Origin: Hasllibacter sp. MH4015
Lineage (GTDB): Bacteria; Pseudomonadota; Alphaproteobacteria; Rhodobacterales; Rhodobacteraceae
Reading direction: 5' to 3'
Assembly: GCF_020177575.1 (NCBI RefSeq)
Contig: NZ_JAHTBK010000001.1
Span: 2,539,875-2,603,874, forward strand
DNA: 64,000 nt
Of the stretch, positions 14,114 through 52,892 are shown piece after piece. The position numbers were made by a program, and so were the translations under genes. Position 1 is the stretch's first letter, and each line of letters starts with the position of its first letter. Under the pieces are notes generated by a model. The model saw only the letters and a program-made list of their open reading frames with translations. It ran no database searches and was not told the origin of the DNA.

Positions 14114-14904
14114 CCTGGGACGTCTTCGCCGTCAAATACGCCGACCGGAACGACCGCTTGCGGGCGGAGAGTTTCCTGTTCGATGCCGCCCACGATGCGC
14201 CCCATCCGATGGATTACTTCATCTGGGTCCTGCGGCGCGGGGATCGGGTGATCCTTGTCGACACCGGCTATGACAGTGCGGAGGCCGCGGCGCGTGGTCG
14301 CCCGATCGCCCGGGATCCAAGAGACGCGCTCAAACCCCTTGGCATCGCGGCAGAGGCGGTGGATGAGGTGATCGTCACCCACCTGCATTACGATCACGCG
14401 GGCGGTCTGCATCTGTTCCCCAACGCGCGCCTGCATTTGCAGGAGGCGGAGATGGCCTATGCCACCGGGCCGTGCATGTGCCACGACACGTTGCGGATGC
14501 CGTTCACGGCGGACCACGTCTGCGAAGCGGTCAGGCGGGTCTATTCCGGAAAGGTCATGTTTCGCGACGGCGATGGGGAGGTTGCCGATGGCGTCACCGT
14601 GCATCGCATCGGCGGCCATTCGCGAGGGTTGCAGGCGGTCCGCGTGCACACGGATGCAGGCTTTCTGGTGCTGGCCTCTGACGCTGCGCATTTCTACGAG
14701 AACATACGCGCCCGTAAACCCTTTCCTATCGTAGTCGACCTAGACGACATGCTGACCGGGTTCGGCATGTTGGAGCGGCTTGCGAGCGAACGGAATTTGA
14801 TCGTGCCGGGCCACGATCCGCTGGTGCGCCAGCTTTTCCCCGTGGGGCCGGAGGCGCATATCACGCGCCTCGACCAGGGACCGCTGAAGGATGTGCCTCT
14901 CTAG
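14110..14904 (+). CDS. Metallo-beta-lactamase fold hydrolase, N-acyl homoserine lactonase-like
   Basis: 264 residues. The dinuclear zinc motif HLHYDHAGG is at residues 91-99, with a following His in IGGHSRGLQAV, Asp in LASDAAHFYEN and His in VPGHDPLV. This arrangement and the length match the AiiA/AttM-like AHL lactonases, which open the lactone ring of quorum-sensing signals, but related enzymes act on other lactones (for example gamma-lactones). It is coupled by ATGA overlap to the ABM-domain gene. Cytoplasmic: no signal peptide. Confidence 0.8.
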   Translation: MTWDVFAVKYADRNDRLRAESFLFDAAHDAPHPMDYFIWVLRRGDRVILVDTGYDSAEAAARGRPIARDPRDALKPLGIAAEAVDEVIVTHLHYDHAGGLHLFPNARLHLQEAEMAYATGPCMCHDTLRMPFTADHVCEAVRRVYSGKVMFRDGDGEVADGVTVHRIGGHSRGLQAVRVHTDAGFLVLASDAAHFYENIRARKPFPIVVDLDDMLTGFGMLERLASERNLIVPGHDPLVRQLFPVGPEAHITRLDQGPLKDVPL

Positions 14905-14913
14905 CCGGGAGGC

Positions 14914-16104
14914 TCAGACCACGCCGTTCCGCGCCAGACGCGCAATGGCCTCGGCGTCGAAGCCCAGTTCGCGCAGGATTTCCGCGTTGTGCTGACCAAG
15001 CTCCGGCGGGGGCGTGGGCACTGAGGGGCGCGTCTGGTCCAGCAGGAAACCGGTCGTGACGACGTCGATGGCGCGATTCACGCCCGGCACATCGGCGAAA
15101 TGCGCGATGAGATCGCGGTCGGCAACCTGGGGGTGAGAGAGGATGTCCGGCACGCCTAGCACCGGACCGGCAGGGATGCCGTTGGCGTTGAGCATGTCGA
15201 CCCAGTGGGCGGCGGGGCGGGCGGTCAGCACGGTTTCAAGCTCCGCGCGCAGGGCATGGCGGTTGGTTTTGCGATCCTCCCGCGTAGTGAACCGCGGGTC
15301 CGCCAGCAGGTCCTCCCGATCCAGAAGACGGGCGAGCGCCGTCCATTGCTCATCCTTGTTTGCCGCGATGTTGAGCGGCGCGTCCGCGGCCTGGAACGTG
15401 CCGGACGGGGCGGAGGTCGGGTTCTCGTTGCCATGGGCCTGCGGTGGGGTGCCGCCGATCAGGTGGTTGGAGACGACCCAGCCCATGGTGGCCAGCGTCG
15501 CCTCCAACATGCTGACGTCGATGAATGTGCCGCGCTCGGGCGCGTTGAGGGCCGCCGAGATCGCCATGGCCGCCGTGAGCCCGCCGATCGTGTCCGACAG
15601 CGGATAGCCGACGCGGGTGGGTTGCGTCCCGTCCCCGGTGATCGACATGACGCCCGAGGCGCCTTGGATGATCTGGTCATAGGCCGGTTTGTCCGCCCAC
15701 GGGCCGTCCTGCCCGAAACCGGAGATCGCGCAATAGATCAACGCAGGATTTTCGGCCCTGAGGACGTCGTAGGACAGTCCGAGGCGCGCCATGACGCCCG
15801 GCCGGAAATTTTCCACCAGAACATCTGCGGTGCGCACGAGGCGTTTGAGGATGTCCTTGCCGTCGGGGTATTTGAGATTGAGGGTGAGGCTCTTCTTGCC
15901 CGCATTCTGCGCGAGGAAGCTGATGCCCATGCCCTGCGCGCTGAATTCGGGAGAGGCCCCGAGGTTCCGCGCCAGATCTCCGCGGCCGGGTGTTTCGATC
16001 TTGATGATGTCGGCGCCCAGATGGGCGAGTTGATGGCAGGCGAAGGGGCCTGCGAGGACATTGGTGAGGTCGAGGACGCGGATGTCGGCGAGGGGGCGGG
16101 TCAT
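14914..16104 (-). CDS. CaiB/BaiF class III CoA-transferase
   Basis: 396 residues. N-terminal IRVLDLTNVLAGPFACHQL and GADIIKIETPGRGD are diagnostic of family III CoA-transferases; the catalytic Asp should be Asp143 in KPAYDQIIQGASG. Such enzymes transfer CoA between carboxylic acids (for example from succinyl-CoA). It lies downstream of tctCBA on the same strand after a 200-base gap, so it may activate the imported carboxylate; the same order is repeated at 43-47 kb. I take the ATG at 16104; the frame is open further upstream but the family start fits MTRPLADIRVLDL. Confidence 0.9.
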   Translation of the reverse strand: MTRPLADIRVLDLTNVLAGPFACHQLAHLGADIIKIETPGRGDLARNLGASPEFSAQGMGISFLAQNAGKKSLTLNLKYPDGKDILKRLVRTADVLVENFRPGVMARLGLSYDVLRAENPALIYCAISGFGQDGPWADKPAYDQIIQGASGVMSITGDGTQPTRVGYPLSDTIGGLTAAMAISAALNAPERGTFIDVSMLEATLATMGWVVSNHLIGGTPPQAHGNENPTSAPSGTFQAADAPLNIAANKDEQWTALARLLDREDLLADPRFTTREDRKTNRHALRAELETVLTARPAAHWVDMLNANGIPAGPVLGVPDILSHPQVADRDLIAHFADVPGVNRAIDVVTTGFLLDQTRPSVPTPPPELGQHNAEILRELGFDAEAIARLARNGVV

Positions 16105-16304
16105 GGGGTCACTATCGGCCAGGCCATGGCCGTCAGGCGGGGTGGCGATCCGATGGACTGGCGGCAGCACGTCATGGTCGCGACGTCCTCAGATCGAAGG
16201 CACGCAGCCCCCAGCCTCCCCAAATCGCCATTCCGGGGGGCGGGACGGCGATGCACCGGTGCGCTGCGCGCTTGCATCCGATCCCGGCGCGTCATTCGGG
16301 CGGA

Positions 16305-17831
16305 TTAGTCGCCATCCGCCACGCCCTGCGCCCGCTTCCGGGCCCGCATCGCACGGTAGCTCGGCAGCAGCACCAGAAGCACCGCCAGCACCAGGAGGCC
16401 GAGGGTCATCGGACGCTCCAGGATGAATCCAAGGCCTTGGTAGAGTTGCATCGAGCGGGAGAAGTTATCCTCCAGCATCGTGCCGAGGATGAAGCCGATC
16501 AAGAGCGGGGCCAGCGGGTAATCGGCGAAACGCAGGATCGTCGCGCAGACCCCGAAGCCCACGAGGATCAACAGCTCCGTTGCGTTGTTCTGGCCGATAT
16601 AGGCGCCCATCAAGGTGAAGAACAAGATGAACGGGATCAGGTAGTTGCGCGGGATCGCGAGGATCTTGGCAATGTAGGGAATGAGCGGCAGGTTCAGGAT
16701 CAGAAGCACCAGATTGCCGATATACATCGAGATGATGACGGCCCAGAACACCTGCGGCTCATCCACCATGAGGCGCGGGCCGGGCGTGACGTTGAGCGCG
16801 ATCAGCGCGCCCAGAAGGATCGCCGTGGTGCCGGAGCCGGGAATGCCAAGCGTCAGGAGGGGCACGAAAGACCCGGTGCAGGCCGCGTTATTCGCCGTCT
16901 CCGGTGCCGACAGACCCTTGATGGAGCCTTTGCCGAATTCCTTCTGCTCTTCCTTCGTGGCGAGGTTGCGTTCGACGGCGTAGCCCAGGAAGGACGCGAT
17001 GGTGGCCCCGGCCCCCGGCAGAACGCCGATGAAGAAGCCCTGCACCGATTGCCGGCCGATCACGGGCGCGATGGCACGCGCCTCTTGCCGGTTGATGCGC
17101 AAGTTGTCGATCTTGCCGGATTTGTCGTCACCGGACCCTTGGGCCGACCGCGCGGGATTCATCACGAGGAAAATCGCCTCCGGCAGGGCGAACATCGCCA
17201 TGGCCAGCGTGATGAAGGAAAAGCCCGATTGCAGATCGAGGATTCCGGCGGTGAACCGTGGCATGGCCGCCAAGGCGCCTTCGCCCACGGTCGCCATCAT
17301 GAGGCCGAGGATCGTCATCATGACGGCCTTTCCCACTTGTCCCGTACCCGCGAAGGCCGCGATGGCGCTGAGGCCGACAACCATCAACGCGAAATATTCG
17401 GCGGAATGGAACAGGAGCGCGACGGACGACAGCATGGGCGCGAAGATCATCAATAGGATCGCGCCGATCGTGCCGCCTGCGAAGCTGGAGATTGCGGCGA
17501 TGGTCAGCGCCTTGCCGGCCATGCCCTTCTGGGCCATCGGGTAGCCATCGAAGGATGTGGCAACCGTGCCCGCGACCCCCGGCGCGTTCAGAAGGATCGA
17601 CGATGTGGAGCCGCCGAAGATGGCGCCATAGTAGACGCCCGCCAGAAGGATCAGGGCCGCGGTCGGATCACCCAAAGTGATTGCCACAGGGATCATGATG
17701 GCGATGATCGACATCGGCCCCAGCCCCGGCAACATGCCGATGAAGGTGCCGATGATGCATCCGAAGACGACCATACCGAGGTTGAACGGATTGATGGCCG
17801 TTTGCAGGCCGATCATGAGACCTTCAAGCAT
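16305..17831 (-). CDS. tctA: Tripartite tricarboxylate transporter, large membrane subunit TctA
   Basis: 508 residues, about twelve hydrophobic segments. The GLGPMSIIAIMIPVAI and YYGAIFGGSTSSILLNAPG region (20-90) and its repeat GVLPGAGATIASFLGYAVE / NNAACTGSFVPLLTLGIPG (about 270-340) are hallmarks of TctA; the protein contains two inverted halves. It forms the ion-coupled permease in the inner membrane with TctB. Order tctC-tctB-tctA on the minus strand; tctA follows tctB by 12 bases. Substrates of this family include citrate, tricarballylate and aromatic or dicarboxylic acids; none can be singled out. Confidence 0.95.
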   Translation of the reverse strand: MLEGLMIGLQTAINPFNLGMVVFGCIIGTFIGMLPGLGPMSIIAIMIPVAITLGDPTAALILLAGVYYGAIFGGSTSSILLNAPGVAGTVATSFDGYPMAQKGMAGKALTIAAISSFAGGTIGAILLMIFAPMLSSVALLFHSAEYFALMVVGLSAIAAFAGTGQVGKAVMMTILGLMMATVGEGALAAMPRFTAGILDLQSGFSFITLAMAMFALPEAIFLVMNPARSAQGSGDDKSGKIDNLRINRQEARAIAPVIGRQSVQGFFIGVLPGAGATIASFLGYAVERNLATKEEQKEFGKGSIKGLSAPETANNAACTGSFVPLLTLGIPGSGTTAILLGALIALNVTPGPRLMVDEPQVFWAVIISMYIGNLVLLILNLPLIPYIAKILAIPRNYLIPFILFFTLMGAYIGQNNATELLILVGFGVCATILRFADYPLAPLLIGFILGTMLEDNFSRSMQLYQGLGFILERPMTLGLLVLAVLLVLLPSYRAMRARKRAQGVADGD

Positions 17832-17843
17832 GGCGGGTCCTCC

Positions 17844-18338
17844 TCAATCGACCAGGAATGTCGGCCAGGGGCGCAGGAAGATGCCCAGGACCTGTTGGAC
17901 GAGAAACCAGATGATGAATGTCGCGATCGCCGCGACGGGGATCAGGATGTGGTATTTCCGCTCTCCCAGGATCGTGGCACCGGCGGTCAGGAACAGGATC
18001 GTGGCGGCGATGAAGCCGATGGGCCGCAGGCAAAGGGCGTAGACGACCATCGCGACAAGAAGGCCGATGGCCTGACCGGTGTTGTAATCACCCAGGCGGC
18101 GATAGTTGATATCGGTGGCGGACGGCTCTTTCTGGCCGGTCTGCTTTTCGAGACCCAGCAGCACGACAAGACCGCACAGCGCGCCCGCGACGCTCAGTAC
18201 CTTGGGGAAGGTCGAGGGCCAGACCGGATTGCGCTGCATGAAGGGCGGCAACGATTGGTCCATCGTGAAGAATGCGGTGTATCCGTAGATGCAGCACATC
18301 GCCACGAAAATCAGCGCGATCCAGCGATCCAGCGCCAT
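17844..18338 (-). CDS. tctB: Tripartite tricarboxylate transporter, small membrane subunit TctB
   Basis: 164 residues with four hydrophobic segments: residues about 5-25, 47-66, 90-108 and 112-155 (the last probably double). This is the normal size and layout of TctB, the partner of TctA in the inner membrane. The chosen ATG is preceded by GGGAGGGG. A strong hairpin separates it from tctC upstream. Confidence 0.9.
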   Translation of the reverse strand: MALDRWIALIFVAMCCIYGYTAFFTMDQSLPPFMQRNPVWPSTFPKVLSVAGALCGLVVLLGLEKQTGQKEPSATDINYRRLGDYNTGQAIGLLVAMVVYALCLRPIGFIAATILFLTAGATILGERKYHILIPVAAIATFIIWFLVQQVLGIFLRPWPTFLVD

Positions 18339-18396
18339 GGTGTCCCCTCCCAAGGATTGTCGTTCGGTGGTGACGCCCCGGGGCCTTGGCCCGGGA

Positions 18397-18425
18397 ACGG
18401 CGCGCGCATGTTCGGCGCGCGCCGT
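18397..18425 (-). promoter_or_regulatory. Hairpin between tctC and tctB
   Basis: A perfect 11-bp G+C stem (ACGGCGCGCGC with GCGCGCGCCGT) and 7-base loop, 10 bases after the tctC stop codon and 59 bases before tctB. A second, weaker G+C stem (around 18374-18395) adjoins it. There is no T-run, so I read it as an mRNA-stabilising or partially terminating element that favours the binding-protein message. Confidence 0.65.
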
Positions 18426-18434
18426 CCGAGGTCT

Positions 18435-19409
18435 TCAGAGGAACCCGAGCGTGCGCATCAGATCACCGATCTGCTGCTCCTGGTTTTCGAGAAACGCCTC
18501 GAAATCCTCGCCGGGATTGTGGATGTTTACCCAGCCGTTCTGGGCGCGGATCGTCTCCCACTCCTCGGTTTCGTACATCGCGGCGATGGCGGCGCGCATG
18601 TTCTCGACCGTTGCCTCGTCCAGACCCGGTGCAGCGAAGAAGCCGCGCCAGTTGACGAATTCCACGTCGATGCCCTGCTCCATCATCGTGGGTGCGTCGG
18701 AGCCTTCGATCCTCTCGGGCGCGGTGACGCCGAGGATGCGCACTTCGCCCTGCTCGGCAAGGGTCACGGCCTCGGAATAACCGGTCGAAAGCGCCTGGAT
18801 CTCACCCGACAGCAGGCCCGCCATGGCAGCACCGCCCGCGTCGTAGGGGATGTAGTTGAAGCCGGTGGGATCTTCGCCCGCCGCTTCCATCGCCATGGCC
18901 GCCACGAGGTGATCCATACCGCCCGGCACGGACCCGCCACCGATGGCGAAAGACGTCGCATCGGCCTGGTAGGCTGCCACGAGGTCTTCCATGGATTGCA
19001 GGTCGCTGTCGGCGGGCACGACAAGAGCCGCGTAATCGCCGATGGTGCCCGCGATCAGCGTGAGGTCACGGAAGCTCTGCGGGAACACGCCCGTCAGGGA
19101 GCGGATGACGATGGGGGTGGAGTTCACCATCATCGTGTTGCCCATGCTGTCGGCGTTCTCGATCAGGTGGGCAATGGCCACACCGCCACCGCCGCCGGAC
19201 ATGTTCTCATACGAAGCGGAGCCGACGATGCCGGCGCTTGTCAGCGCCTCACCGGTGCCGCGCGCGGTGCCGTCCCAACCGCCACCGGCGCCGCCGGGGA
19301 TCAGGAAGTGGATTTCGTCAAGGACCTGGTGGCCATCGGCCTGAGCCGCACCAGAAAAGGCCACCATCGCGGCGGCCGCGGTCATCATGACCCGACGCGT
19401 GAATTTCAT
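18435..19409 (-). CDS. tctC: Tripartite tricarboxylate transporter substrate-binding protein TctC
   Basis: 324 residues. An N-terminal export signal (MKFTRRVMMTAAAAMVAFSG, twin-arginine-like, cleaved near residue 24) leads to a mature protein of the Bug/TctC fold: LIPGGAGGGWDGTARGTGEAL at about 36-56, and SFAIGGGSVPGG and the YDAGGAAMAGLLSGE segment in the middle. It captures the carboxylate in the periplasm. GGAGGAA precedes the ATG. It is the first gene of the tctCBA operon and starts 237 bases from the divergent DJ-1 family gene. Confidence 0.93.
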   Translation of the reverse strand: MKFTRRVMMTAAAAMVAFSGAAQADGHQVLDEIHFLIPGGAGGGWDGTARGTGEALTSAGIVGSASYENMSGGGGGVAIAHLIENADSMGNTMMVNSTPIVIRSLTGVFPQSFRDLTLIAGTIGDYAALVVPADSDLQSMEDLVAAYQADATSFAIGGGSVPGGMDHLVAAMAMEAAGEDPTGFNYIPYDAGGAAMAGLLSGEIQALSTGYSEAVTLAEQGEVRILGVTAPERIEGSDAPTMMEQGIDVEFVNWRGFFAAPGLDEATVENMRAAIAAMYETEEWETIRAQNGWVNIHNPGEDFEAFLENQEQQIGDLMRTLGFL

Positions 19410-19650: not shown

Positions 19651-20254
19651 AAACATGGCGGCCCTCGTGTTCCCCGGATTTCAGACCTTGGACTATTTCG
19701 GGCCGATCGAAATGCTTGGCGGGTTCCGGGATGAGATCAAGATCGTGACAGTGGCCAAGACGCGTGATCCGGTTCCAAGTCGCCATGGCCAGCGGATCGT
19801 CCCCGCCAGGACCTTGTCCGACGCAAGCGACTACGAATTGCTGTTCATCCCCGGTGGCGACTCGGCGCTTGAGGCCGCAAAGGACCCCGACCTCATGCAA
19901 TGGGTGCGCAACACATCGGCCCACGCGGATCGGGTGATGGCCGTGTGTACCGGCACGGTGCTGTTGGGAATGACCGGTGTGCTGGACGGGCGTCGCGCAA
20001 CAACCAACAAGCTGGACTTCAACGACACCGTGCATTTGGCCCCGAACGTCACGTGGGTGAAGCGCGCGCGATGGGTGCAGGACGGCAAATTCTATACCTC
20101 ATCCGGCGTGTCGGCCGGTATGGACATGGCACTGGCCGCAGCCGCCGATCTGTTCGGGATGCAAGCCGCGGAAACCATGGCCGAGGAATGCGAATACAAT
20201 TGGACGAGGGACCCCGATGATGACCCATTCGCGGCGCTTGCGGGTTTGGTCTGA
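19646..20254 (+). CDS. DJ-1/PfpI family protein
   Basis: 202 residues with the class I amidotransferase-like fold: AALVFPGFQTLDYFGPIEML at the start, ELLFIPGGDSALEA (about 69-82), and the nucleophile-elbow motif VMAVCTGTVLLG with the expected catalytic Cys near residue 99, and a later TSSGVSAGMDMALA. It resembles the isocyanide hydratase / glutaminase-like branch (GATase1 domain of AraC regulators) but has no DNA-binding domain. Function uncertain; cytoplasmic. It is divergent from tctCBA and followed 56 bases later by the two-component operon. Confidence 0.82.
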   Translation: MRNMAALVFPGFQTLDYFGPIEMLGGFRDEIKIVTVAKTRDPVPSRHGQRIVPARTLSDASDYELLFIPGGDSALEAAKDPDLMQWVRNTSAHADRVMAVCTGTVLLGMTGVLDGRRATTNKLDFNDTVHLAPNVTWVKRARWVQDGKFYTSSGVSAGMDMALAAAADLFGMQAAETMAEECEYNWTRDPDDDPFAALAGLV

Positions 20255-20310
20255 CATCTGGGCGTTGCGTCCCGCGCGTCTGACCGGCAGTCTTGCGCGG
20301 GGAGGATGCG

Positions 20311-20970
20311 ATGCGGTTTTTGCTGGTCGAGGACAATGCCGAATTGGCCGATGCGGTGGTGCAGCGTCTGGGGCTGGACGGGCATGCCGTGGATCACGCC
20401 GCGACGCTTGCCGGGGCGGAAGATTGCCTGGCTGTGGCGGAATACGATCTGATCTTGCTGGACGTCATGCTGCCCGACGGGGACGGGCGCGATTTCCTGG
20501 CCCGCAAACGTGACCATCTTGAAACGCCCGTGATCGTCCTGACCGCACGCAGCCAGATCTCCGACCGGGTGGGCGCGCTGGATCAAGGTGCGGATGACTA
20601 CATCACGAAGCCGTTCGATTTCAGTGAGTTGGAGGCGCGCTGCCGCGCCGTTCTACGCCGCAGGGGCGGGGTGGCGCGGAATGAGATCCCGTTGGGCCAA
20701 GCCATTTTTGAGCCTAATGCCGGGACGCTCACCTGTGGCGACGAGACCCTCGAATTGCGCAACCGCGAAATTCGCCTGCTGGAGGTCTTTGCCCGCAATC
20801 CGGGGCAGATCCTGTCCAAGTCACAGCTTCTGGATCGCCTGTTCAGCCAAGACGCCGATGTCACCGAGAACGCGATCGAGGTCTATGTGGGCCGCCTGCG
20901 CAAGAAGCTTGACGGGGCGGGCGTGCGGATCGAAACGGTGCGCGGCCTGGGCTATCGGATGAGCGCATGA
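20311..20970 (+). CDS. OmpR-family response regulator, TctD/QseB-like
   Basis: 219 residues: receiver domain (1-115) with the phosphoacceptor Asp51 in LILLDVMLPDGDG, acidic pair Glu7/Asp8 and Lys100 in ITKPFDFSE; then a winged-helix DNA-binding domain ending VYVGRLRKKLDGAGVRIETVRGLGY (partly quoted). The start at 20311 has GGGGAGG upstream. Overlaps the kinase gene as ATGA. TctD of Salmonella regulates tctCBA, so the nearby transporter is a plausible target, but that is inference. Confidence 0.92.
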   Translation: MRFLLVEDNAELADAVVQRLGLDGHAVDHAATLAGAEDCLAVAEYDLILLDVMLPDGDGRDFLARKRDHLETPVIVLTARSQISDRVGALDQGADDYITKPFDFSELEARCRAVLRRRGGVARNEIPLGQAIFEPNAGTLTCGDETLELRNREIRLLEVFARNPGQILSKSQLLDRLFSQDADVTENAIEVYVGRLRKKLDGAGVRIETVRGLGYRMSA

Positions 20971-22343
20971 GCGTGCAGACCGGATGGCCCATTGCGCGGA
21001 AACTGACGCTTTTTCTGGCCGCGATCGTCGCGCTTCTGGCGTTCATCAGCTGGGGTATGGTGACCAGTTTCGCGCGGGAGGCGGCGGGCCGGACCCAAGA
21101 CAACATCCTTGCGGCGTCGGCCACATCCATCGCCGAAACCCTGCGGTCCGAGGCCGGGGCGATCCGGTTGGAACTGCCCTATTCCGCCTTCTCCATGCTC
21201 GGCGCGATCAGCGAGGATCGGGTGTTCTACCGCGTGACCGCGGCGGGTGAAGTGCTGACGGGATACGACGATCTGGTGGTGGAAGGCGGCGCGGAGGCAC
21301 CGGGGCAAGTCAGTTTCGCCACCCTGCCCTATCGCGGCACGTCGGTGCGCGCGGCGCAGGTCACGCGGGTGATCCTTGCCGATGGCGAGGCGGTGCCGGT
21401 CACCGTCACCGTCGCCCAGACCCGCGCGGGTGTGCAGGGGATCGCGGCGGGGCTGTCGCGGCAGGCGGCGATCCTGTCAGTGGGGATCTTCATTCTGGCG
21501 GTTGGCCTGTCGGCCTATGCGGTGCGCGCGTCCCTGCGTCCGCTAAACACCATGGCGCAGCATGTCGCCACGCGCGGGCCGTCCGATCTGCGCCCGTTGC
21601 GCAGGCAAGGTCCGCCGGAACTGATGCCGCTGGTCCGCGCGCTCAACCGTTTGATGGATCGCCTTGGAGCCGCACAACGCCGGTCCGAGGATTTCATCGC
21701 GGAGGCCGCCCACCGCGTCCGCACGCCCCTTGCCATTGTCCGGACGCAAGCGGAAATCGCGCTGCGCTCCACCACCGATGAGGATCAGAAACGCACCCTG
21801 CGCCGGGTGATCCGGGCCGTCGACGACAGCTCCCGCTCCGCCGGGCAGTTGCTGGATCATGCGATGGTGTCGTTCCGGGCCGATGATCTGGCGCGCGAAC
21901 GTGTGGACCTGCCCGCGCTGGCCAGCGCCGTGGCCGATGCCCTGCGCCCCACAGCGGAGATGAAGGATATCGACATCGCGCTGGACGCGAGTGCGGCGGC
22001 AGTGGAGGGCGACGCGATCCTGATCCAGAACGCCCTGCGCAACGTGCTGGACAACGCGATCAAATATTCTCCCGCCGAGACGATTGTGCATGTGGCCGTG
22101 TCCAATGGCGGGGGGGAGGCGATTGTCGCCGTCAGCGATGAGGGGCCGGGATTTGGCGACGGACCGGCGGGGCATCTGACCGAACGCTTCCGACGCGGTG
22201 AACGGGCCGAAGGTGTCGTCGGATCGGGCCTTGGCCTGACCATCGCGGAAGAGGCCGTGCGCGCCCATGGCGGGCGTCTGGACCTGGGACCGGCAAAGGG
22301 GGGGAGCGGCGCATGTGTGTCACTGATCTTGCCCGCCGCCTGA
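20967..22343 (+). CDS. Sensor histidine kinase, TctE/QseC-like
   Basis: 458 residues. One membrane segment near residues 12-32, a periplasmic sensor region of about 135 residues (2CSK-type), a second segment at about 168-190, HAMP, then HisKA with the phosphorylated His249 in EAAHRVRTPLAIV, and a HATPase domain (NVLDNAIKYS, DEGPGFG, GSGLGLTIAEEA). It phosphorylates the regulator encoded just before it. Its last 31 bases overlap the start of a periplasmic binding protein gene, suggesting that the three products work together. Confidence 0.92.
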   Translation: MSVQTGWPIARKLTLFLAAIVALLAFISWGMVTSFAREAAGRTQDNILAASATSIAETLRSEAGAIRLELPYSAFSMLGAISEDRVFYRVTAAGEVLTGYDDLVVEGGAEAPGQVSFATLPYRGTSVRAAQVTRVILADGEAVPVTVTVAQTRAGVQGIAAGLSRQAAILSVGIFILAVGLSAYAVRASLRPLNTMAQHVATRGPSDLRPLRRQGPPELMPLVRALNRLMDRLGAAQRRSEDFIAEAAHRVRTPLAIVRTQAEIALRSTTDEDQKRTLRRVIRAVDDSSRSAGQLLDHAMVSFRADDLARERVDLPALASAVADALRPTAEMKDIDIALDASAAAVEGDAILIQNALRNVLDNAIKYSPAETIVHVAVSNGGGEAIVAVSDEGPGFGDGPAGHLTERFRRGERAEGVVGSGLGLTIAEEAVRAHGGRLDLGPAKGGSGACVSLILPAA

Positions 22344-23359
22344 TCGGCGCCGCGTGTCTGGGCCTGTTGCTGGCATCGCAGGCCGTGGCGCAGGATTTCG
22401 AGATCGAGGACAGGCGCGTCTATCCCGGCGCGGACGGCCCGATGCTGCGCGTCATCTCCACCGCCGATCTGGATGTGTTCGAGCCGTTCCTGTTGCGGTT
22501 TCAGACGGACAATCCCGGCGTGGGCATTGATTACAATACCGTATCTTCGTCCGAGCTGAACCGCGCGATCCGGGGCGGCGCGGTGTTCGACCTTGCGCTG
22601 TCGTCGGCCATGGACCTGCAATTCTCGCTGGCCAATGACGGATACGCGCAAAGCTACAGCTCCGGCGCGACGGCGGCGCTGCCCGATTGGGCGCGGTGGA
22701 ATGACCAGCTTTTCGCATTCACCGCCGAACCCGCCGTCATCGTCATCAACGCCGCCCGTTTCGAGGGGCTGACCCTGCCGCGGAGCCGTGCCGAATTGGT
22801 GACATTGCTCCGCGACAATCCCGACCGCTTCGCGGGGCGTCTTGGCACGTATGATCTGCATGTCAGCGGGTTGGGGTACCTTTTCGCCACGCAAGAGGCG
22901 CGATCCTCGGACGCCTATTGGCGCCTGACGGAAGTGATGGGACGGCTGGATGCGCGGCTTTATTGCTGTTCGTCCCAGATGATCGACGACGTGCAGAGCG
23001 GCGATCTGGCTCTGGCCTACAACGTCTTAGGCTCCTACGCCGCGCAGCGCCTGGATGCGGAGGCGGGGCTGACCGTGTTGCCGTTGGAGGATTTCACCAA
23101 CGTCATGCTGCGCACGGCGCTTATCCCCGCCACGGCGGAGGAGATGGATGCGGCGGGTCGGATGCTGGACGCGCTGCTGAGGGAGGGGATGGGGTTCGGC
23201 CCCGCCACACCCGTCTTGCCGCCCCTGCAAACCCGCGGCGCGGCGGAGCAATCGCCGTTCGGTCCGATCCGCCTTGGGCCCGCGCTGATGGTCTACCTCG
23301 ACCGTTTGAACCGCGCGAGTTTTCTAGAGGCGTGGGATGCCGCGATGGTGCAGCAATGA
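22313..23359 (+). CDS. Periplasmic solute-binding protein linked to the two-component system
   Basis: 348 residues with a Sec signal peptide (about 1-26, ending SQAVAQ). The mature part is like family 1 / AfuA-type extracellular solute-binding proteins: LRVISTADLDVFEPFLLRFQ near the start of the mature protein and VFDLALSSAMDLQFSLANDG later (partly quoted). No ABC permease or ATPase gene adjoins it. It starts inside the kinase gene, with GGGGGAG before the ATG, so it is co-expressed with the two-component pair and may present a ligand to the kinase. An alternative is an orphan transport component. Confidence 0.85.
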   Translation: MCVTDLARRLIGAACLGLLLASQAVAQDFEIEDRRVYPGADGPMLRVISTADLDVFEPFLLRFQTDNPGVGIDYNTVSSSELNRAIRGGAVFDLALSSAMDLQFSLANDGYAQSYSSGATAALPDWARWNDQLFAFTAEPAVIVINAARFEGLTLPRSRAELVTLLRDNPDRFAGRLGTYDLHVSGLGYLFATQEARSSDAYWRLTEVMGRLDARLYCCSSQMIDDVQSGDLALAYNVLGSYAAQRLDAEAGLTVLPLEDFTNVMLRTALIPATAEEMDAAGRMLDALLREGMGFGPATPVLPPLQTRGAAEQSPFGPIRLGPALMVYLDRLNRASFLEAWDAAMVQQ

Positions 23360-42987: not shown

Positions 42988-44181
42988 TTAATCTGGAGAA
43001 CCATCCGGCCCCTGCGCCCGTGCGCTCAATCCAAGCTCGTGCAGAAGGCTGTCGGTATCCGCGCCAAGGTCGCGCGGTGGGTGGGCTGGGGCGAAGCCGT
43101 GCCCGGCGATCTGGAACGGCAAGGTCGGAACCGATGCACCGCTAGGCAGCGGATGAAACAGCCCCCGCGCCGCCGCATGGGGGGAGGCGACTGCGTCGTC
43201 CAGCCCGCGCAATTCGGCCGCCGCGACGCCCGCTTTGCGCAACCGATGCTCCCACGTGCTGGCATCCTCCACGCTTAGCGCGTCCAGCAGCTCCGCCTCC
43301 AGCGCCTCGGCATGGTTTGCGCGGGCCGCACGGTCGGTGAAGCGCGGATCGGACAGCCAGACCGCCCGGTCCACGGTCCGCGCCAGCGCCTCGAACTGCG
43401 CTTCCTCGTTCACCCCCAAGGACAGCAGGCCAGAGCGACAGGGAAATGTCCCCGACGACGGGCTGCGGGAGTTGGCGGCGTTGCCCCGAGGCTGCGGTAC
43501 GTGGCCCGTGGCGGACATGTCTGTCACGGCCGAGGCCATCAGCACCATCGCGGTGTCGAACATGGAGACGTCCAGAAATGCGCCACGCCCCGTCCGCTCC
43601 CGCTGAAGCAGGGCAGAGACGACGCCGAACCCGGCGGCGAGTGCGGTGCCGTAATCCATCACCGGCGCGCCCGTGCGCAACGGCCCGCTTTCGGCGGTCC
43701 CGGTCATGGTCATCAGGCCGCAGGCTGCCTGAATATTCACGTCATAGGCAGGGGCATTCTCCATCTCGCCGCCACGGCCATAACCCGTCATCGCACAGTG
43801 GATAAGGCGCGGAAACCGGTCGGTCAGGTTGGTCAGGCCGAGGGTGCGAAGGGTCTGCGGAAGATGGTTTTCGACAAGCACATCTGCCGTGGCCAAAAGC
43901 CGGTCCATCGCGTCGCGCCCGAACGGCGTTTCAAGGTCCAGCACCACCGACCTTTTTCCTGCGGCCTGTGTCGACCAGGCGGTCGATCGCCCCTCCGCCG
44001 CTGCCGCCTTGTCGGTGCCGCCACGCCAGCGCATCGCGTCGCCGCGCGGGCTTTCGACCTTGATGACCTCCGCGCCCAGAAGCCCCAGCATGTAGCCGCA
44101 GGCAGGCCCGGCAAGGACATGGGTGAAATCGACGACCCGGATGCCGGAGAGTGGCAGGGGCGGATCGCGATCCTCGCTCAT
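42988..44181 (-). CDS. CaiB/BaiF class III CoA-transferase
   Basis: 397 residues: IRVVDFTHVLAGPACGYMLG and GAEVIKVESPRGD at the start, catalytic Asp expected in ENAPAYDVNIQAACG (about residue 145), and the C-terminal REGLDD-like LRGLDDAVASPHAAARG. Moves CoA between carboxylates. Its ATG overlaps the tctA stop as ATGA, so it belongs to the second TTT operon as its last gene, and probably makes the CoA ester of the imported acid. Confidence 0.9.
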   Translation of the reverse strand: MSEDRDPPLPLSGIRVVDFTHVLAGPACGYMLGLLGAEVIKVESPRGDAMRWRGGTDKAAAAEGRSTAWSTQAAGKRSVVLDLETPFGRDAMDRLLATADVLVENHLPQTLRTLGLTNLTDRFPRLIHCAMTGYGRGGEMENAPAYDVNIQAACGLMTMTGTAESGPLRTGAPVMDYGTALAAGFGVVSALLQRERTGRGAFLDVSMFDTAMVLMASAVTDMSATGHVPQPRGNAANSRSPSSGTFPCRSGLLSLGVNEEAQFEALARTVDRAVWLSDPRFTDRAARANHAEALEAELLDALSVEDASTWEHRLRKAGVAAAELRGLDDAVASPHAAARGLFHPLPSGASVPTLPFQIAGHGFAPAHPPRDLGADTDSLLHELGLSARAQGPDGSPD

Positions 44182-45731
44182 TGCGCGTTCGCCCGCCGCT
44201 GGCGGCGCTGGCCGATCATGCGGGCCAGCAGGACAAGGACGCCCACGGCCAGGAAGCCGCCCGCCACAGGCTCCTTCAGGAAAATAAGCGCACCATCGTC
44301 GCTCAGCAGGAGCGCCTGGCGAAAACTCTCCTCCATCGGGCGCGCAAGGACGAAGGCGATCACGAATGCGGCCGGTGCGAAATCGGTGCGCCGCATCGCG
44401 TAGCCGATCACACCGAAGAGAAGCGCGATAGCCACGTCGAGGATCGACGCGCGGGCGGAGAAGCTGGCCGCCACGGCCGTCAGGAAAATGAACGGATAGA
44501 GGTAGCTTGGCGGAATCCGCGCAATGGTCTTGCCAATCAGCGGCCCACCCCAGAAGCCCATCACGCCATAGGCGGCGATGCCCACGAGACCGGCGGCGAA
44601 CAACGCGAAGACCAGCTCGCGGGACGAGAAGAAATCGCCGCTATCGGTGATGATCATGTTGCTTTCGCTGAACAGGAGCGGGCCGACCTGGATGCCGTGG
44701 ATCAAGAACACGCCGATCAGCACTGCCGCCACAGTGGAGCCCGGCACACCCAGCGTCAAAAGCGGGATCATCGACGGTCCCGACACGGCGTTATTCGCGC
44801 TTTCCGGGGCCGCGATGCCCTCGATCACGCCGGTCCCCCATTGCTCGGAATTCGCGGCGCGGCGCTTTTCCTCGCCATAGGCCACGAAACAGGCCACGGA
44901 TGAGCCCAGCCCCGGCATCATGCCGATGAACGATCCCATGATCGACGAGCGGAACATTAGCGGCACCAGCCGCCGCACCTCAGCAAGTGTCAGGCGGTCG
45001 CCGCGATGGTCATCGGCGAGCCCTGCGTCGATCACAGTCTCCTTTCCGCGCTTTTCGGCCTGGATTATGATCTCCGAAATCACGAATACCCCGATCAGAA
45101 GGGGAACGAGGCTCATCCCGTCGCGCAGGTCCTGGGTTCCGAAGGTCAGGCGCGGGGTATTGGTAATGACGTCCGTGCCGATCAGGGCAACAAGCGCGCC
45201 AAGGATTGTGGACAGGATGCCCTTGGTAATGGATTTCCCCACCACCGATCCAATCACGACAAAGGCCATCAGGTAGATCGCAAAATATTCGGTCGGGCCG
45301 AATGTGCGGGTATATTGGGCGATCCAGACGGCGCCGAAGATCAGGATGATCTCGCCCGTGTAATCCCCGAAGACACTGGCGACAGTTGCCGTGCGCAGGG
45401 CGCGGTTCGGCTGGCCGCGCTTGGCCATCGGGTGCCCGTCCATCATCGTCGCCGCACTGGCCGCCGTGCCGGGCGTGTTGAACAGGATCGCCGCGATAGA
45501 ACCGCCATAACGCCCCGATTTCCCGATCACGTAGAGAAACGCCAGCGCGGGCAGCGGCCCGAGGTAGAAGGATAGCGGCAGCAGCATCGCGATGGCCGCA
45601 CTCGCCGTCAGGCCCGGAAGCGCGCCGAAAATGATGCCGACGAATGCCGCGAGCAGGGTGAAGAAGATCGCCTGCGGATCGGAAAAGAGCATTCCGAAGC
45701 CGCCGATCAGGTCATTGAACGCGTCTATCAT
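44178..45731 (-). CDS. tctA: Tripartite tricarboxylate transporter, large membrane subunit TctA (second system)
   Basis: 517 residues and about twelve membrane segments. Conserved TctA stretches: GALPGLTASAAIAMLLPLSF (37-56), SIAAILFNTPGTAASAATMMDGHPMA (partly quoted) and the second-half GMMPGLGSSVACFVAYGEEKR and SANNAVSGPSMIPLLTLGVPGS. Its start is directly next to the tctB stop. Clearly a different paralogue from the one at 16.3-17.8 kb, judging by residues in these blocks. Confidence 0.94.
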   Translation of the reverse strand: MIDAFNDLIGGFGMLFSDPQAIFFTLLAAFVGIIFGALPGLTASAAIAMLLPLSFYLGPLPALAFLYVIGKSGRYGGSIAAILFNTPGTAASAATMMDGHPMAKRGQPNRALRTATVASVFGDYTGEIILIFGAVWIAQYTRTFGPTEYFAIYLMAFVVIGSVVGKSITKGILSTILGALVALIGTDVITNTPRLTFGTQDLRDGMSLVPLLIGVFVISEIIIQAEKRGKETVIDAGLADDHRGDRLTLAEVRRLVPLMFRSSIMGSFIGMMPGLGSSVACFVAYGEEKRRAANSEQWGTGVIEGIAAPESANNAVSGPSMIPLLTLGVPGSTVAAVLIGVFLIHGIQVGPLLFSESNMIITDSGDFFSSRELVFALFAAGLVGIAAYGVMGFWGGPLIGKTIARIPPSYLYPFIFLTAVAASFSARASILDVAIALLFGVIGYAMRRTDFAPAAFVIAFVLARPMEESFRQALLLSDDGALIFLKEPVAGGFLAVGVLVLLARMIGQRRQRRANAQ

Positions 45732-46238
45732 TCAGGACCCCGGCGTGATCAGGCGCGACAGCCAGCGCAGGTCCACAAGCTCCCCCCGCGGATCGAGCAG
45801 GCCCATCAGACCCATAAATACGAATTGGTAGACGATACCGGCCAGGATCGGCAGGAGCAGCAGGATGATCGGCCGCCGCACCCCGAAAACCCATAGCATC
45901 AGGCCGGTCCCGACGATCATCGCCACCATGTATCCTGCCGCCCAGAAGATCGCGGTACAGATCGCACCGACGGCGATCACCGACAGCACCCGGCGCACAT
46001 CGCTGTTGCGGAAACCGAAGCTCTCGGCCTCCTCCTCCGGCGCGCCACCAGCGACAGCGCCGATGGCGATTATCGCCCCAAGCGCGATCATCAGGACGGC
46101 CAAGAAGACCGGCACGGATCGCGGCCCCACCGCCTCATAGGAGGCCGGGTCGATGCGCCATGCCTCCACCGCGAAGACCGCACCAATGGCGATGACGGTA
46201 GCGGCGACACCAAGGTCGATGCGACTGCGATAGGTCAT
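45732..46238 (-). CDS. tctB: Tripartite tricarboxylate transporter, small membrane subunit TctB (second system)
   Basis: 168 residues with four hydrophobic stretches (about 10-25, 44-64, 86-120 and 123-148) and the family's SVPVFLAVLMIALGA near the second helix. Stop and tctA start are adjacent. The ATG at 46238 gives MTYRSRIDLGVAAT; the upstream open frame would run through the hairpin. Confidence 0.88.
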   Translation of the reverse strand: MTYRSRIDLGVAATVIAIGAVFAVEAWRIDPASYEAVGPRSVPVFLAVLMIALGAIIAIGAVAGGAPEEEAESFGFRNSDVRRVLSVIAVGAICTAIFWAAGYMVAMIVGTGLMLWVFGVRRPIILLLLPILAGIVYQFVFMGLMGLLDPRGELVDLRWLSRLITPGS

Positions 46239-46264
46239 GGGGTACGGGCCGATCGGACATAGGC

Positions 46265-46305: not shown

Positions 46306-47265
46306 TTATTCCTGCGCCGCCGCGATCTCGGCGATCACGGGCTCGAACGTCTCCATCAGGCGGTTGAGGTTCTCGGCCCCATCCTCCGGCGTCAGGTGCA
46401 TCGCGGCCAGGCCGGAGCGACCCATGAAACGGCCGAAGCCTTCCAGTTCGACGACCGCTGCGACGGCGGCGGAGACATCCTCCATCACCTCATCGGGCAG
46501 GCCGACCGGGCCGTAAAGGCACATCGGCCCCGTCACGTTCAGGGCGTCCAGACCCTGTTCCGCGAAGGTCGGCACGTCGGGGTTGGCCGGGTCGCGCTCC
46601 AGTGACGGCACGCCAAGCACACGAATGTCATCCTCGAAGCCTGACACAAGCTGGTTGCCATTGAAGCTGGCCGTTACATCGTCGGCCACTAACGCATTCC
46701 GTGCGTTCGATCCGCCACGGAAGGGCACGACCTGGTGGTCGATGCCGTTGGCATTCATGAACAGGTGGCCCACAACCGCATGCATCGTCGCCGCGCCCGA
46801 GGTGGACCAGCGCACGGTCTCACCGCTGTCGCGCACCATCTCCACCCATTCCGCAGCCGTCTGTGCGGGATGTTCGGCAGGGATTTGCAGGCCGGTGACA
46901 AGCTGCGTCACACAGCCCAGGTTCACCAGGCTCTCGCGCGGGTCGAACTCCGCCTCTGGCGTCGAAAGCGAACTGCCCGACAGCGTGCCATTGTTGATGA
47001 TGTAGAGCGTATAGCCGTCCGCGTCCGCCTCGGCGACGGTCTGGGCGGCTTGCAGGCCCGAACCGCCGGGCTGGTTCACGATCACCATCGGCATGCCGTT
47101 CATGCTTGGTGCCTCTGCCGCGAAGGAGCCGAAGCCCCGCGCGGATGTGTCGGTGCCGCCGCCCGCCGAGAAGCCGACGATAAGCCGAACCGGACGTTCG
47201 GGATAGTCGGCGAAGGCCGCCGTTGCGGTCAGCGCGATAGCCGTGGAAAGCAGAAAAGTCTTCAT
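46306..47265 (-). CDS. tctC: Tripartite tricarboxylate transporter substrate-binding protein TctC (second system)
   Basis: 319 residues. Sec signal peptide (about 1-19, MKTFLLSTAIALTATAAFA), then YPERPVRLIVGFSAGGGTDTSARGF of the Bug/TctC fold (20-44, partly quoted) and VVPFRGGSNARNALVADDVT in the middle. Periplasmic receptor of the transporter. GGGAGGA before the ATG. Divergent from a LysR gene. Confidence 0.93.
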   Translation of the reverse strand: MKTFLLSTAIALTATAAFADYPERPVRLIVGFSAGGGTDTSARGFGSFAAEAPSMNGMPMVIVNQPGGSGLQAAQTVAEADADGYTLYIINNGTLSGSSLSTPEAEFDPRESLVNLGCVTQLVTGLQIPAEHPAQTAAEWVEMVRDSGETVRWSTSGAATMHAVVGHLFMNANGIDHQVVPFRGGSNARNALVADDVTASFNGNQLVSGFEDDIRVLGVPSLERDPANPDVPTFAEQGLDALNVTGPMCLYGPVGLPDEVMEDVSAAVAAVVELEGFGRFMGRSGLAAMHLTPEDGAENLNRLMETFEPVIAEIAAAQE

Positions 47266-47366
47266 GATGGTCCTCCCTTGCAGGCCGCGTCTTGCTTGCG
47301 CAGTGCCTGATCCGAAAAGGGTTGCATGGTGTGAATGCATTTACAATTGCTAAGGTTCTGGGTTTA

Positions 47367-47383
47367 CTTGCGCAAAATGCAAG
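47367..47383. promoter_or_regulatory. LysR-box-like inverted repeat before lysR
   Basis: CTTGC, 7 bases, GCAAG, containing T-N11-A, 13 bases before the TTG start of the LysR gene and about 100 bases before tctC. A further TGCA-N9-TGCA lies near 47320. Likely operator of the divergent pair. Confidence 0.4.
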
Positions 47384-47396
47384 AGAAGGAACGCCG

Positions 47397-48305
47397 TTGC
47401 GCACCGACACCCTCAAGGCCTTTCAAACGGTGGTCGAGCTGGGGTCCCTCAGTTCCGCAGCCCGCGCCCTCAACCTGTCGGAGCCCGCCCTGTCGCGCCG
47501 CATCCAGGCCCTGGAGGCCGAGCTGGATCTGGTCTTGTTTGACCGGTCGCGCCGGCAATTGCGCCCGACGGAGGCCGGTCAGGCCTTCTTGCAGGAGGTT
47601 CAACCGATCCTGTCGGGATTGAACCGGATCTCCGATTTCGCCAACGACATCCGCACCGGCGCGCGGCGGCGGTTGCGGCTGGTGTCGATGCCGCGCCTGG
47701 GCGCCGCAATCACCGCGCCCGTTGTGGCGCGTTTCAAGGCCTCCCATCCCGATGTCGCGCTCAGCGTCGATATCCAGCCGCGCCGCTTCTTGGAGACTTG
47801 GATCACCGGCCAACGCTTCGACATCGGGTTGTCGAGCCTGCCGGCGCGCCATCGTGACATCGACACGCGCCTGCTGTTCGAGCTTCCTGCCGTGGCGGTG
47901 CTTCCCGTGGGCCACCGCCTGGCCGATGCGCCGTCGCTGAGCGTGGAGGACCTCTTGGCGGAGGACAATTTCCTGACGCTCGGCAGCGGCACGCTTTTGC
48001 GGCAGCAGACCGAGACGATCTTCGGCCATGCCAATGCGATGCTGCGCCCGAGGCTGGAGGTCAGCCAGGCGCATCTGGCCTGTCACCTCGTGGCGCTTGG
48101 CGCAGGCGTGACGATTTGCGACCCGCTGGTCCCAACTGGGTTTCCGGAGCAACTGGCCACCGTGCCGATCGTGCCGCACTACCCGATGGCATTCGGAATG
48201 CACTTTTTGCGCGGCCATACGCTCAGCGACGAGGCGCTGACCCTTGAAGGGATCGTGCGCGCGCGCGCCGACGAATTCATCGAAGAATTGGGTATCACCC
48301 CATGA
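47397..48305 (+). CDS. LysR-family transcriptional regulator of the second tct operon
   Basis: 302 residues starting at TTG, chosen because AGAAGGA lies 7 bases upstream and the family begins at this point (RTDTLKAFQTVVELGSLSSA). Helix-turn-helix about 1-60 with LNLSEPALSRRIQALE; effector domain about 85-295. Divergent from tctC. An upstream ATG at 47292 in frame would add 35 residues running through the intergenic operator. Ends inside the last codons of the convergent permease gene. Confidence 0.9.
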   Translation: MRTDTLKAFQTVVELGSLSSAARALNLSEPALSRRIQALEAELDLVLFDRSRRQLRPTEAGQAFLQEVQPILSGLNRISDFANDIRTGARRRLRLVSMPRLGAAITAPVVARFKASHPDVALSVDIQPRRFLETWITGQRFDIGLSSLPARHRDIDTRLLFELPAVAVLPVGHRLADAPSLSVEDLLAEDNFLTLGSGTLLRQQTETIFGHANAMLRPRLEVSQAHLACHLVALGAGVTICDPLVPTGFPEQLATVPIVPHYPMAFGMHFLRGHTLSDEALTLEGIVRARADEFIEELGITP

Positions 48306-51274: not shown

Positions 51275-51302
51275 ATCGAAAGTCGTGACAAGGAGACACC
51301 TC

Positions 51303-52892
51303 TTGAACCTGTCCGAGGCAACTGTCCGCAGCCTGCAAGCCGTTGGAACAAAGACGATCTTTGGCTATCCTGGCGATCCCTCCGTGGGCTTCCTGGAAGC
51401 CTGTCGCACTGAAGGGACGGAGTTCATACTGGCCCGGCGCGAAGGCACGGCGGGTCTGATGGCGGAGGCTTGGGGGATGCTTACGGGGCGGCCCGGCTGC
51501 GTGTTGTCAACGCTTGGCCCCGGCTCCACGAACCTCGCGAACGCCGTCGCTAACGCGTACCTGGATCGAGTGCCGATGGTGGCGATTTCCGGACAGATCG
51601 ACACGGGTCGCGTGGCGACATTCACCCACCAGGTCGTCGACCAACGCGCCCTCTTCACGCCGATCTCCAAATGGGCCGCGGACCTGACGCCCAACGCCGC
51701 CGACCCCGTCCTGCGCCGCGCGCTGCGCCTGGCGATGGCCCCGCGCCCCGGCCCGGTTCACCTGTCTATGCACGCCGATCATGTCACGGCGGAGGTTGCG
51801 GGCGACGTGGTGCCCCCGCCATTGACACCCTTCCATCACACCTCCGTCACCCATTCCGGCACCGCGCCAGAGGCGATGATCGCCCGCGCGAAGCGTCCCA
51901 TGATCCTCTTCGGGATTTCCGCGATGCAGGAGGCCGCGGGCGATGAAATTGTCGCGCTGGCTGAACGGATCGGCGCGGCAATCGTCGCCGCCCCCATGGC
52001 CAAAGGGACTGTGGCCGAAGATCATTCACTCTTTGCCGGCACGCTCGACATGGCCTGCCAGGCGCTGATGTGGGATCTGATGCAATCGGCGGATCTCGTG
52101 ATCTGCGCCGGGTTCGATCCGGTCGAGTTGATCAAGCCGTGGTCGGTCAAGGCTCCGGTCCTCCACATCGACCAGGTGCCGAACACCGATCAGGTCTATG
52201 CCGCCGAGGCTGAGGTCGTGGGGCCCATCGCGCCCGCGCTGGCGTGGCTTACCGATGCGGCTTCCGCAGCGGCGGGCTGGCCTTTGGCCGAGATCGCCAG
52301 CCATCGCGATCACCTCGCTGCCGCGTTCGACGATGGGCGCGTCAGCGGCACGCTCAACCCCTCCGACGTGATCCGCGTGGCGCGGGATGTCCTTCCCGCC
52401 GACACCATCGCCAGCGTCGATGTCGGCTCTCACAAGCTGCTTGTCGGACAGGGCTGGCGCCCCTCTGCGCCCCGCAGGTTCCTGATGACGAACGGCCTCA
52501 GCTCCATGGGGTTCAGCCTGCCCGCCGGGATCACCGCCAAGCACCTGCACCGCGACGCGCCGGTCGTGGCCTTCACCGGCGATGGCGGATTGGCCATGGT
52601 CCAGGGGGAGCTTCGGCTGGCCGCAAGCCTGAAACTGGGCCTCAAGGTGCTTGTCTTCGTCGACAATTCGCTCAACCGGATCGAGTTGAAGCAGATGGCC
52701 AAACAGGTCCCCTCCACCGGCACGATCATCGAGGAGACGGCGATCGAGCCGCTGGCAGCCTCCATGGGCTGCAACGGCATCATGGCCGAAACCGAATCTC
52801 AATTGGCTGAGGCGTTGGCCGTGGACCCCGGTGACACCCCGCTCGTCATCGGCGCGCGCATCGACCCCGCGCAATACGCGGCGCAGTTCTGA
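51303..52892 (+). CDS. Thiamine diphosphate-dependent enzyme, acetolactate synthase-like
   Basis: 529 residues from a TTG start with AAGGAG 9 bases upstream. ThDP-PYR domain (about 1-165) with the cofactor-activating Glu in ARREGTAGLMAEAWG (about 43-57), a central domain, and a ThDP-PP domain with GDGGLAMVQGELRLAASLKLG ending in NSLN (metal-diphosphate site, partly quoted). Such enzymes decarboxylate 2-oxo acids or make C-C bonds; the residues do not identify the substrate for me. With an aldehyde dehydrogenase immediately after it, decarboxylation of a 2-oxo acid to an aldehyde is plausible. Shorter than sulfoacetaldehyde acetyltransferase (about 590). Confidence 0.88.
   Translation: MNLSEATVRSLQAVGTKTIFGYPGDPSVGFLEACRTEGTEFILARREGTAGLMAEAWGMLTGRPGCVLSTLGPGSTNLANAVANAYLDRVPMVAISGQIDTGRVATFTHQVVDQRALFTPISKWAADLTPNAADPVLRRALRLAMAPRPGPVHLSMHADHVTAEVAGDVVPPPLTPFHHTSVTHSGTAPEAMIARAKRPMILFGISAMQEAAGDEIVALAERIGAAIVAAPMAKGTVAEDHSLFAGTLDMACQALMWDLMQSADLVICAGFDPVELIKPWSVKAPVLHIDQVPNTDQVYAAEAEVVGPIAPALAWLTDAASAAAGWPLAEIASHRDHLAAAFDDGRVSGTLNPSDVIRVARDVLPADTIASVDVGSHKLLVGQGWRPSAPRRFLMTNGLSSMGFSLPAGITAKHLHRDAPVVAFTGDGGLAMVQGELRLAASLKLGLKVLVFVDNSLNRIELKQMAKQVPSTGTIIEETAIEPLAASMGCNGIMAETESQLAEALAVDPGDTPLVIGARIDPAQYAAQF

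Follow-up and report, generated by a model that had tools for sequence, protein, structure and literature searches.

The stretch of DNA analysed here (the window) comprises 64,000 nucleotides of a contig of Hasllibacter sp. MH4015, a genome whose nearest named relatives belong to Roseicyclus, and carries two modules in which the tctC, tctB and tctA genes of a tripartite tricarboxylate transporter (TTT) are followed by a caiB gene encoding a coenzyme A (CoA)-transferase. As described in an earlier note on this stretch, the eight genes are arranged in the order tctC-tctB-tctA-caiB, all on the minus strand, and each product scored well over the cut-off of the expected Pfam family. With TctA, TctB and TctC occurring together, each over its family cut-off, both modules represent TTT systems. 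The same note had regarded the modules as no close copies of each other and as differently regulated, and both statements were borne out: identity between the modules was 38.6% for CaiB, 31-32% for TctA and 25-26% for TctC, with no BLAST hit for TctB, and module 1 is accompanied by TctD-like two-component genes whereas module 2 has a divergent LysR gene. The genome (3.71 Mb in two contigs) encodes three TctA and three CaiB proteins in total. Of the three tctA genes, two are each followed directly by one of the caiB genes. Assuming about 3,600 genes, the chance of two such pairs is approximately 2 in a million.

In module 1, tctC1 (18435..19409, minus strand) encodes a periplasmic solute-binding protein of 324 amino acids (Pfam TctC, 71.5 bits), tctB1 (17844..18338, minus strand; Pfam TctB, 80.4 bits) the small membrane subunit, tctA1 (16305..17831, minus strand; Pfam TctA, 472.6 bits) the large membrane subunit of 508 amino acids, and caiB1 (14914..16104, minus strand; Pfam CoA_transf_3, 395 bits) a class III CoA-transferase of 396 amino acids. 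For caiB1, the ATG at 16104 has the best support as start codon, so that 200 bases separate the gene from tctA1; a pattern scan of this gap found no terminator-like site on the coding strand. Divergent from tctC1 lie the genes of a response regulator (20308..20970, plus strand) and a sensor histidine kinase (20967..22343, plus strand), the latter conserved beside TctCBA, followed by the likewise conserved gene of an extracellular solute-binding protein accompanying the two-component genes (22313..23359, plus strand; Pfam SBP_bac_1), the start of which may be located slightly downstream. The best NCBIfam match of the response regulator was TctD with 189.6 bits, which is below the equivalog cut-off, so that the protein is referred to as TctD-like only, TctD being the closest model. 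A divergent TctD-type response regulator together with a kinase is the arrangement also found in citrate TTT operons. A short gene between tctC1 and the response regulator (19651-20254) is DJ-1/PfpI-like as judged by eye, and weak homologues (40-42%) occur in only a few Roseicyclus loci.

Both CaiB proteins belong to the class III (CaiB/BaiF) CoA-transferases, with CoA_transf_3 scores over the cut-off and, in alignments to solved class III enzymes, an aspartate (D171 in CaiB1, D176 in CaiB2) at the position assigned to the catalytic residue of this family. Class III enzymes shift CoA between acids. Neither protein reached the NCBIfam cut-off of any known CoA-transferase equivalog (glutarate, mesaconate, oxalate, carnitine); the best equivalog score of CaiB2 was 194.4 of 522. 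The orthologues of CaiB1 form a group of 61-81% identity, and the next CaiB homologues are at most 44% identical (34 genomes).

Association of caiB1 with citryl-CoA lyase

Module 1 was compared with 80 loci from named genomes, nearly all of them Rhodobacterales, that contain a close relative of TctA1 (81-96% identity); TctC1 identity across these loci was 69-91%, and 77 loci were readable. The constant core is tctC-tctB-tctA, and the divergent response regulator, the kinase and the solute-binding protein were all present in 64 of the 77. The caiB1 gene directly follows tctA1 in 31 loci and is located elsewhere in the locus in one further case (L038, Rhodobium). An overlap of 8 bases between the stop of tctA and the start of caiB1 is present in 12 loci. 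The gene after caiB1 encodes a citrate-synthase-like citryl-CoA lyase of about 260 codons in 28 of 30 readable loci, in 20 of these 28 with an overlap of 4 bases between caiB1 and the lyase gene. The one operon lyase that was scanned scored 434 bits, compared to a cut-off of 261 for the NCBIfam citryl-CoA lyase equivalog. Citryl-CoA lyases are enzymes that release acetyl-CoA and oxaloacetate.

The arrangement extends beyond the Rhodobacterales. Genes of the caiB1 type adjoin TctCBA also in Photobacterium, a gammaproteobacterium, and in other alphaproteobacterial families; in Photobacterium the TctC, TctB and TctA genes precede the caiB1-lyase pair, and TTT genes occur beside the pair in several other families. 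Pairing of caiB with TTT genes was found in several gene orders and orientations (L038, L233, L187). The earlier note had taken transport and CoA activation of the same carboxylate to form a functional unit, provided that tctA and caiB stay adjacent beyond close relatives. This adjacency was kept for both modules, and the functional unit is therefore supported as far as gene conservation is concerned; the third enzyme, citryl-CoA lyase, had been overlooked.

The two enzymes also occur together across genomes. In one draw of 349 Pseudomonadota genomes, CaiB1 was present in 17 and the lyase in 19, with 15 genomes encoding both, 2 only CaiB1, 4 only the lyase and 328 neither (Fisher 6.6e-21; as kinship is ignored, this value serves as a guide only). 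Adjacent caiB1-lyase pairs were identified by annotation in Azoarcus, Methylobacterium, Bradyrhizobium and Diaphorobacter; those in Cupriavidus, Photobacterium, Caballeronia, Rhodococcus and Nonomuraea were recognised from their sequences. Four or more switches between presence and absence of caiB1 fall on supported branches of the TctA1 tree, and parsimony gives 11 for the best tree; the lyase switches together with caiB1, the number of supported independent pairs being too low for significance. A plasmid of Roseomonas mucosa (L154, 5003-7185) carries a caiB1-type gene that overlaps an annotated hydroxymethylglutaryl-CoA lyase gene instead of one for citryl-CoA lyase, with a citrate:proton symporter gene and several tctC genes nearby; the hydroxymethylglutaryl-CoA lyase, though unrelated, possibly fulfils the same function.

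In the window itself, no lyase gene directly follows caiB1. Two Roseicyclus loci with the same gene order (L007 and L008) carry a citryl-CoA lyase gene at the corresponding junction (14904..14914 in the window), between caiB1 and a convergent gene for a metallo-beta-lactamase-fold protein. Alignment of the window with both loci extends almost to the end of caiB1 and resumes at the convergent gene, and the junction, which comprises about 935 bases including the lyase gene in L007, is reduced to about 63 bases. The sole citryl-CoA lyase of the genome is encoded 212 kb away (contig positions 2767614-2768411), beside a gene that by eye is of the LysR type. Its best match was the protein of PDB 6hxp, named citryl-CoA lyase, and the alignment covers the two His motifs and the Asp motif typical of the citrate synthase fold (HGGA, GHR and DGA). 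This lyase groups with other non-operon lyases in a separate clade (support of 99 in the Shimodaira-Hasegawa-like approximate likelihood-ratio test, SH-aLRT), and because of this strongly supported separation it was rejected as a relocated copy of the operon gene.

The caiB1 gene of this strain is intact, and the ratio of nonsynonymous to synonymous divergence (dN/dS) of 0.15-0.19 indicates that it is still under selection. Its dN to relatives is 0.13-0.16, compared to about 0.07 between more distant relatives that have kept the lyase, at similar dS; no comparable rise was observed for tctA1 and tctC1. This pattern fits a weaker or changed constraint on caiB1 after loss of its adjacent partner.

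A putative route of citrate activation and cleavage

The probable substrate of the transporter is indicated by work on Ruegeria pomeroyi. In that species, growth on citrate and drawdown of citrate were each reduced by 99% in a tctABC mutant (SPO0184), and the transporter is reported to be conserved throughout the Roseobacter group (PMC10130141). By analogy, through this group-wide conservation, citrate may also be the ligand of TctCBA1. Comparison of TctC with solved structures gave similarities that were too even for naming a ligand. Further pointers to citrate are TctD as the closest regulator model, the two-component genes neighbouring the Photobacterium copy, which are closest to DpiA and the DcuS/DpiB family, an aconitase gene located near caiB1 in Cupriavidus necator N-1, and the citrate:proton symporter gene near caiB1 in Roseomonas mucosa. 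CitF is absent from the genome of Hasllibacter sp. MH4015.

We consider it somewhat probable that module 1 is a citrate uptake operon with an added step in which citrate is activated by CoA transfer, and that this operon normally also includes citryl-CoA lyase. Under the proposed mechanism, TctCBA1, controlled by the TctD-like two-component system, would import citrate, CaiB1 would transfer CoA from an acyl-CoA (succinyl-CoA or acetyl-CoA) to citrate to form citryl-CoA, and the citrate-synthase-like lyase would split citryl-CoA to acetyl-CoA and oxaloacetate. Citrate could thus feed into metabolism at two points, with no need for ATP-citrate lyase or for the citrate lyase CitDEF. In this strain, from which the operon lyase is gone, the distant lyase of the other clade may substitute. 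The sequence analysis itself established the gene order and its conservation, the overlapping frames of relatives, the joint occurrence of CaiB1 with the lyase, the alignment of the lyase to the solved citryl-CoA lyase and the absence of CitF; citrate as the ligand, the action of CaiB1 on citrate, the CoA donor, the direction of the reaction and the joining of the steps to a pathway are inferred. An acetate kinase and phosphate acetyltransferase gene pair, adjacent in Ruegeria sp. THAF33, was considered as a sign that acetyl-CoA is the donor and was rejected, as the pair is not conserved in the 80 loci.

Several observations weigh against a citrate-specific unit of this kind. In 45 of the 77 loci caiB1 is absent from a locus with the same transporter and unrelated genes follow tctA, so that uptake does not depend on CaiB1. 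The best NCBIfam score of CaiB1 was obtained for succinate-glutarate CoA-transferase and amounted to 293.6 of 750 bits, which gives no equivalog call. In addition, the caiB1-lyase pair is found next to other transporters as well, and it adjoins genes of the shikimate pathway in Azoarcus. Finally, the clade of the distant lyase is found mostly in an operon for shikimate degradation with a tripartite ATP-independent periplasmic (TRAP) transporter, so that this lyase is not necessarily the partner of CaiB1. In the Rhodobacterales (L269, L270, L272, L274, L275, L277), this conserved operon encodes the TRAP transporter, a 3-dehydroshikimate dehydratase (QuiC-like) and citryl-CoA lyase, often along with a shikimate dehydrogenase, a CoA-acylating aldehyde dehydrogenase and a thiamine pyrophosphate (TPP) enzyme, which suggests that shikimate-type compounds are converted to citryl-CoA via decarboxylation and acylating oxidation. 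The substrate of CaiB1 and the lyase might instead be another acid that resembles citrate, e.g., a hydroxy-tricarboxylate from aromatic or shikimate breakdown, which would also be carried by TctCBA. The genes around the Azoarcus pair are in line with this, as are those adjoining the clade of this genome's lyase in several Rhodobacterales, but the closest transporter with an experimental assignment takes up citrate (PMC10130141), the lyase scores well over the citryl-CoA lyase cut-off, and the acylating dehydrogenase of the shikimate operons could itself produce citryl-CoA, i.e., the same lyase substrate. We regard another acid as unlikely.

The lack of caiB1 in most relatives of module 1, and of caiB2 in about half of those of module 2, would also be expected if the CoA-transferases were mere passengers with substrates unrelated to those of the transporters, placed there by selfish clustering or by read-through from a strong promoter of the transporter genes. 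This is very unlikely given that caiB1 and the lyase gene recur together, that frames overlap, that caiB is paired with TTT genes in different orders and orientations, and that caiB1 changes repeatedly on the TctA1 tree while the lyase follows. Somewhat unlikely, and compatible with the proposed citrate route for the family as a whole, is that module 1 of this particular strain has reverted to simple uptake of citrate, with caiB1 in decay or re-purposed. Loss of the lyase at the junction, the doubled nonsynonymous divergence of caiB1 and the different clade of the remaining lyase point in this direction, whereas the intact gene, the kept catalytic aspartate and the low dN/dS argue against it. 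Moreover, a lyase is encoded elsewhere in eight of nine genomes with CaiB1 but without an adjacent lyase, compared to 4 of 18 genomes without CaiB1 (p 0.0016, post hoc).

Module 2 and its surroundings

Module 2 consists of tctC2 (46306..47265, minus strand; Pfam TctC, 101.4 bits), encoding a periplasmic solute-binding protein of 319 amino acids, tctB2 (45732..46241, minus strand; Pfam TctB, 43.2 bits), tctA2 (44178..45731, minus strand; 517 amino acids; Pfam TctA, 423.9 bits) and caiB2 (42988..44181, minus strand; 397 amino acids; Pfam CoA_transf_3, 344.8 bits), the last two overlapping by 4 bases as previously noted. The gene of a LysR regulator (47355..48305, plus strand) is divergent from tctC2, and a divergent LysR gene was also found beside tctC in those related caiB2 loci for which an upstream gene had been called. 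CaiB2 has few close relatives: among 149 genomes of the family, 3 besides this one encoded such a protein at the cut-off used. In a set of 395 family genomes, caiB2 adjoins relatives of TctA2 in 9 of 20 loci. In eight of these nine it is located downstream of tctA, in several cases with a 4-base overlap, and in the ninth (L233) it is divergent and upstream of tctC. No constant partner gene or lyase gene was identified beside caiB2 among the loci with TctA2 relatives. In a Litoreibacter locus (L123, 8313-11572), a tctA2-type transporter is followed in a row by caiB2-type, caiB1-type and citryl-CoA lyase genes; here both module types of the window are joined in one cluster. From the sequence, module 2 is best read as an independent, LysR-linked unit that would combine uptake of a carboxylate with CoA transfer to that carboxylate, without a lyase.

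At a distance of 7-10 kb from module 2 (51279-57646), a TPP-type enzyme, an aldehyde dehydrogenase, TcuA, TcuB and a DUF1932 dehydrogenase are encoded in a row. TcuA (tricarballylate dehydrogenase) scored 652 bits and TcuB 404 bits, over the respective cut-offs (TIGR02484 for TcuB). The row is possibly a set for tricarboxylate breakdown, and TcuA and TcuB are only a hint toward the substrate of module 2. Elsewhere in the genome, no caiB gene was found in the flank read beside the third TTT set (at about 3.087 Mb). The third CaiB gene (at about 2.230 Mb; L126, 8606-11432) adjoins an apparent TPP-type enzyme gene, and by eye the two might form a pair of the oxalate or formyl-CoA type.

Comparison with known systems

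If the proposed route operates, imported citrate would not have to pass through aconitase alone, but could be cleaved directly, with no use of ATP, to acetyl-CoA and oxaloacetate. One group of CoA-transferases would gain a substrate, and the annotation of 'citryl-CoA lyase' in many heterotrophs would gain a reason. There is, in our estimate, an even chance that a class III CoA-transferase and a stand-alone lyase constitute a further bacterial route of citrate cleavage, with uptake, activation and cleavage encoded in a single tctCBA-caiB-ccl operon that occurs in several pseudomonadotal classes, while actinobacteria likewise have the enzyme pair. No paper describing a tctCBA-caiB-lyase unit was found in the open-licence literature searched, which is weak evidence of novelty.

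With respect to transport and regulation, module 1 resembles the Salmonella tctI and Bordetella bctCBA-bctDE systems, which import citrate and in which a TctD-type two-component system, divergent from TctCBA or next to it, is likewise encoded; the available text on these operons describes no CoA-transferase or citryl-CoA lyase in them (PMC5812351). Module 1 further differs by the extra solute-binding protein after the kinase. The R. pomeroyi tctABC genes (SPO0184-0186) similarly represent a Roseobacter TTT with a citrate phenotype, in a study whose accessible part does not mention a CoA-transferase (PMC10130141), and are putative counterparts of module 1 as judged from the reported conservation across the Roseobacter group.

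The enzymatic steps have counterparts of their own. The class III CoA-transferases with known substrates (succinate-glutarate, succinate-hydroxymethylglutarate, YfdE and mesaconate enzymes) have their fold, motifs and catalytic aspartate in common with CaiB1 and CaiB2. CaiB1, in contrast, forms a tight group of its own that is tied to the lyase, and like CaiB2 it remains below every equivalog cut-off. In cleavage of the Hydrogenobacter type, which is presumably the system from which PDB 6hxp derives, citryl-CoA synthetase acts with citryl-CoA lyase, and as proposed here a separate citrate-synthase-like lyase splits citryl-CoA; activation there depends on an ATP-consuming synthetase, whereas in module 1 it would occur by CoA transfer. 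CitDEF, which has its own citrate CoA-transferase-type subunit, converts citrate by thioester transfer to oxaloacetate and a C2 unit. The net reaction of CaiB1 and the lyase would be similar, but would be carried out, in a genome devoid of CitF, by unrelated proteins.

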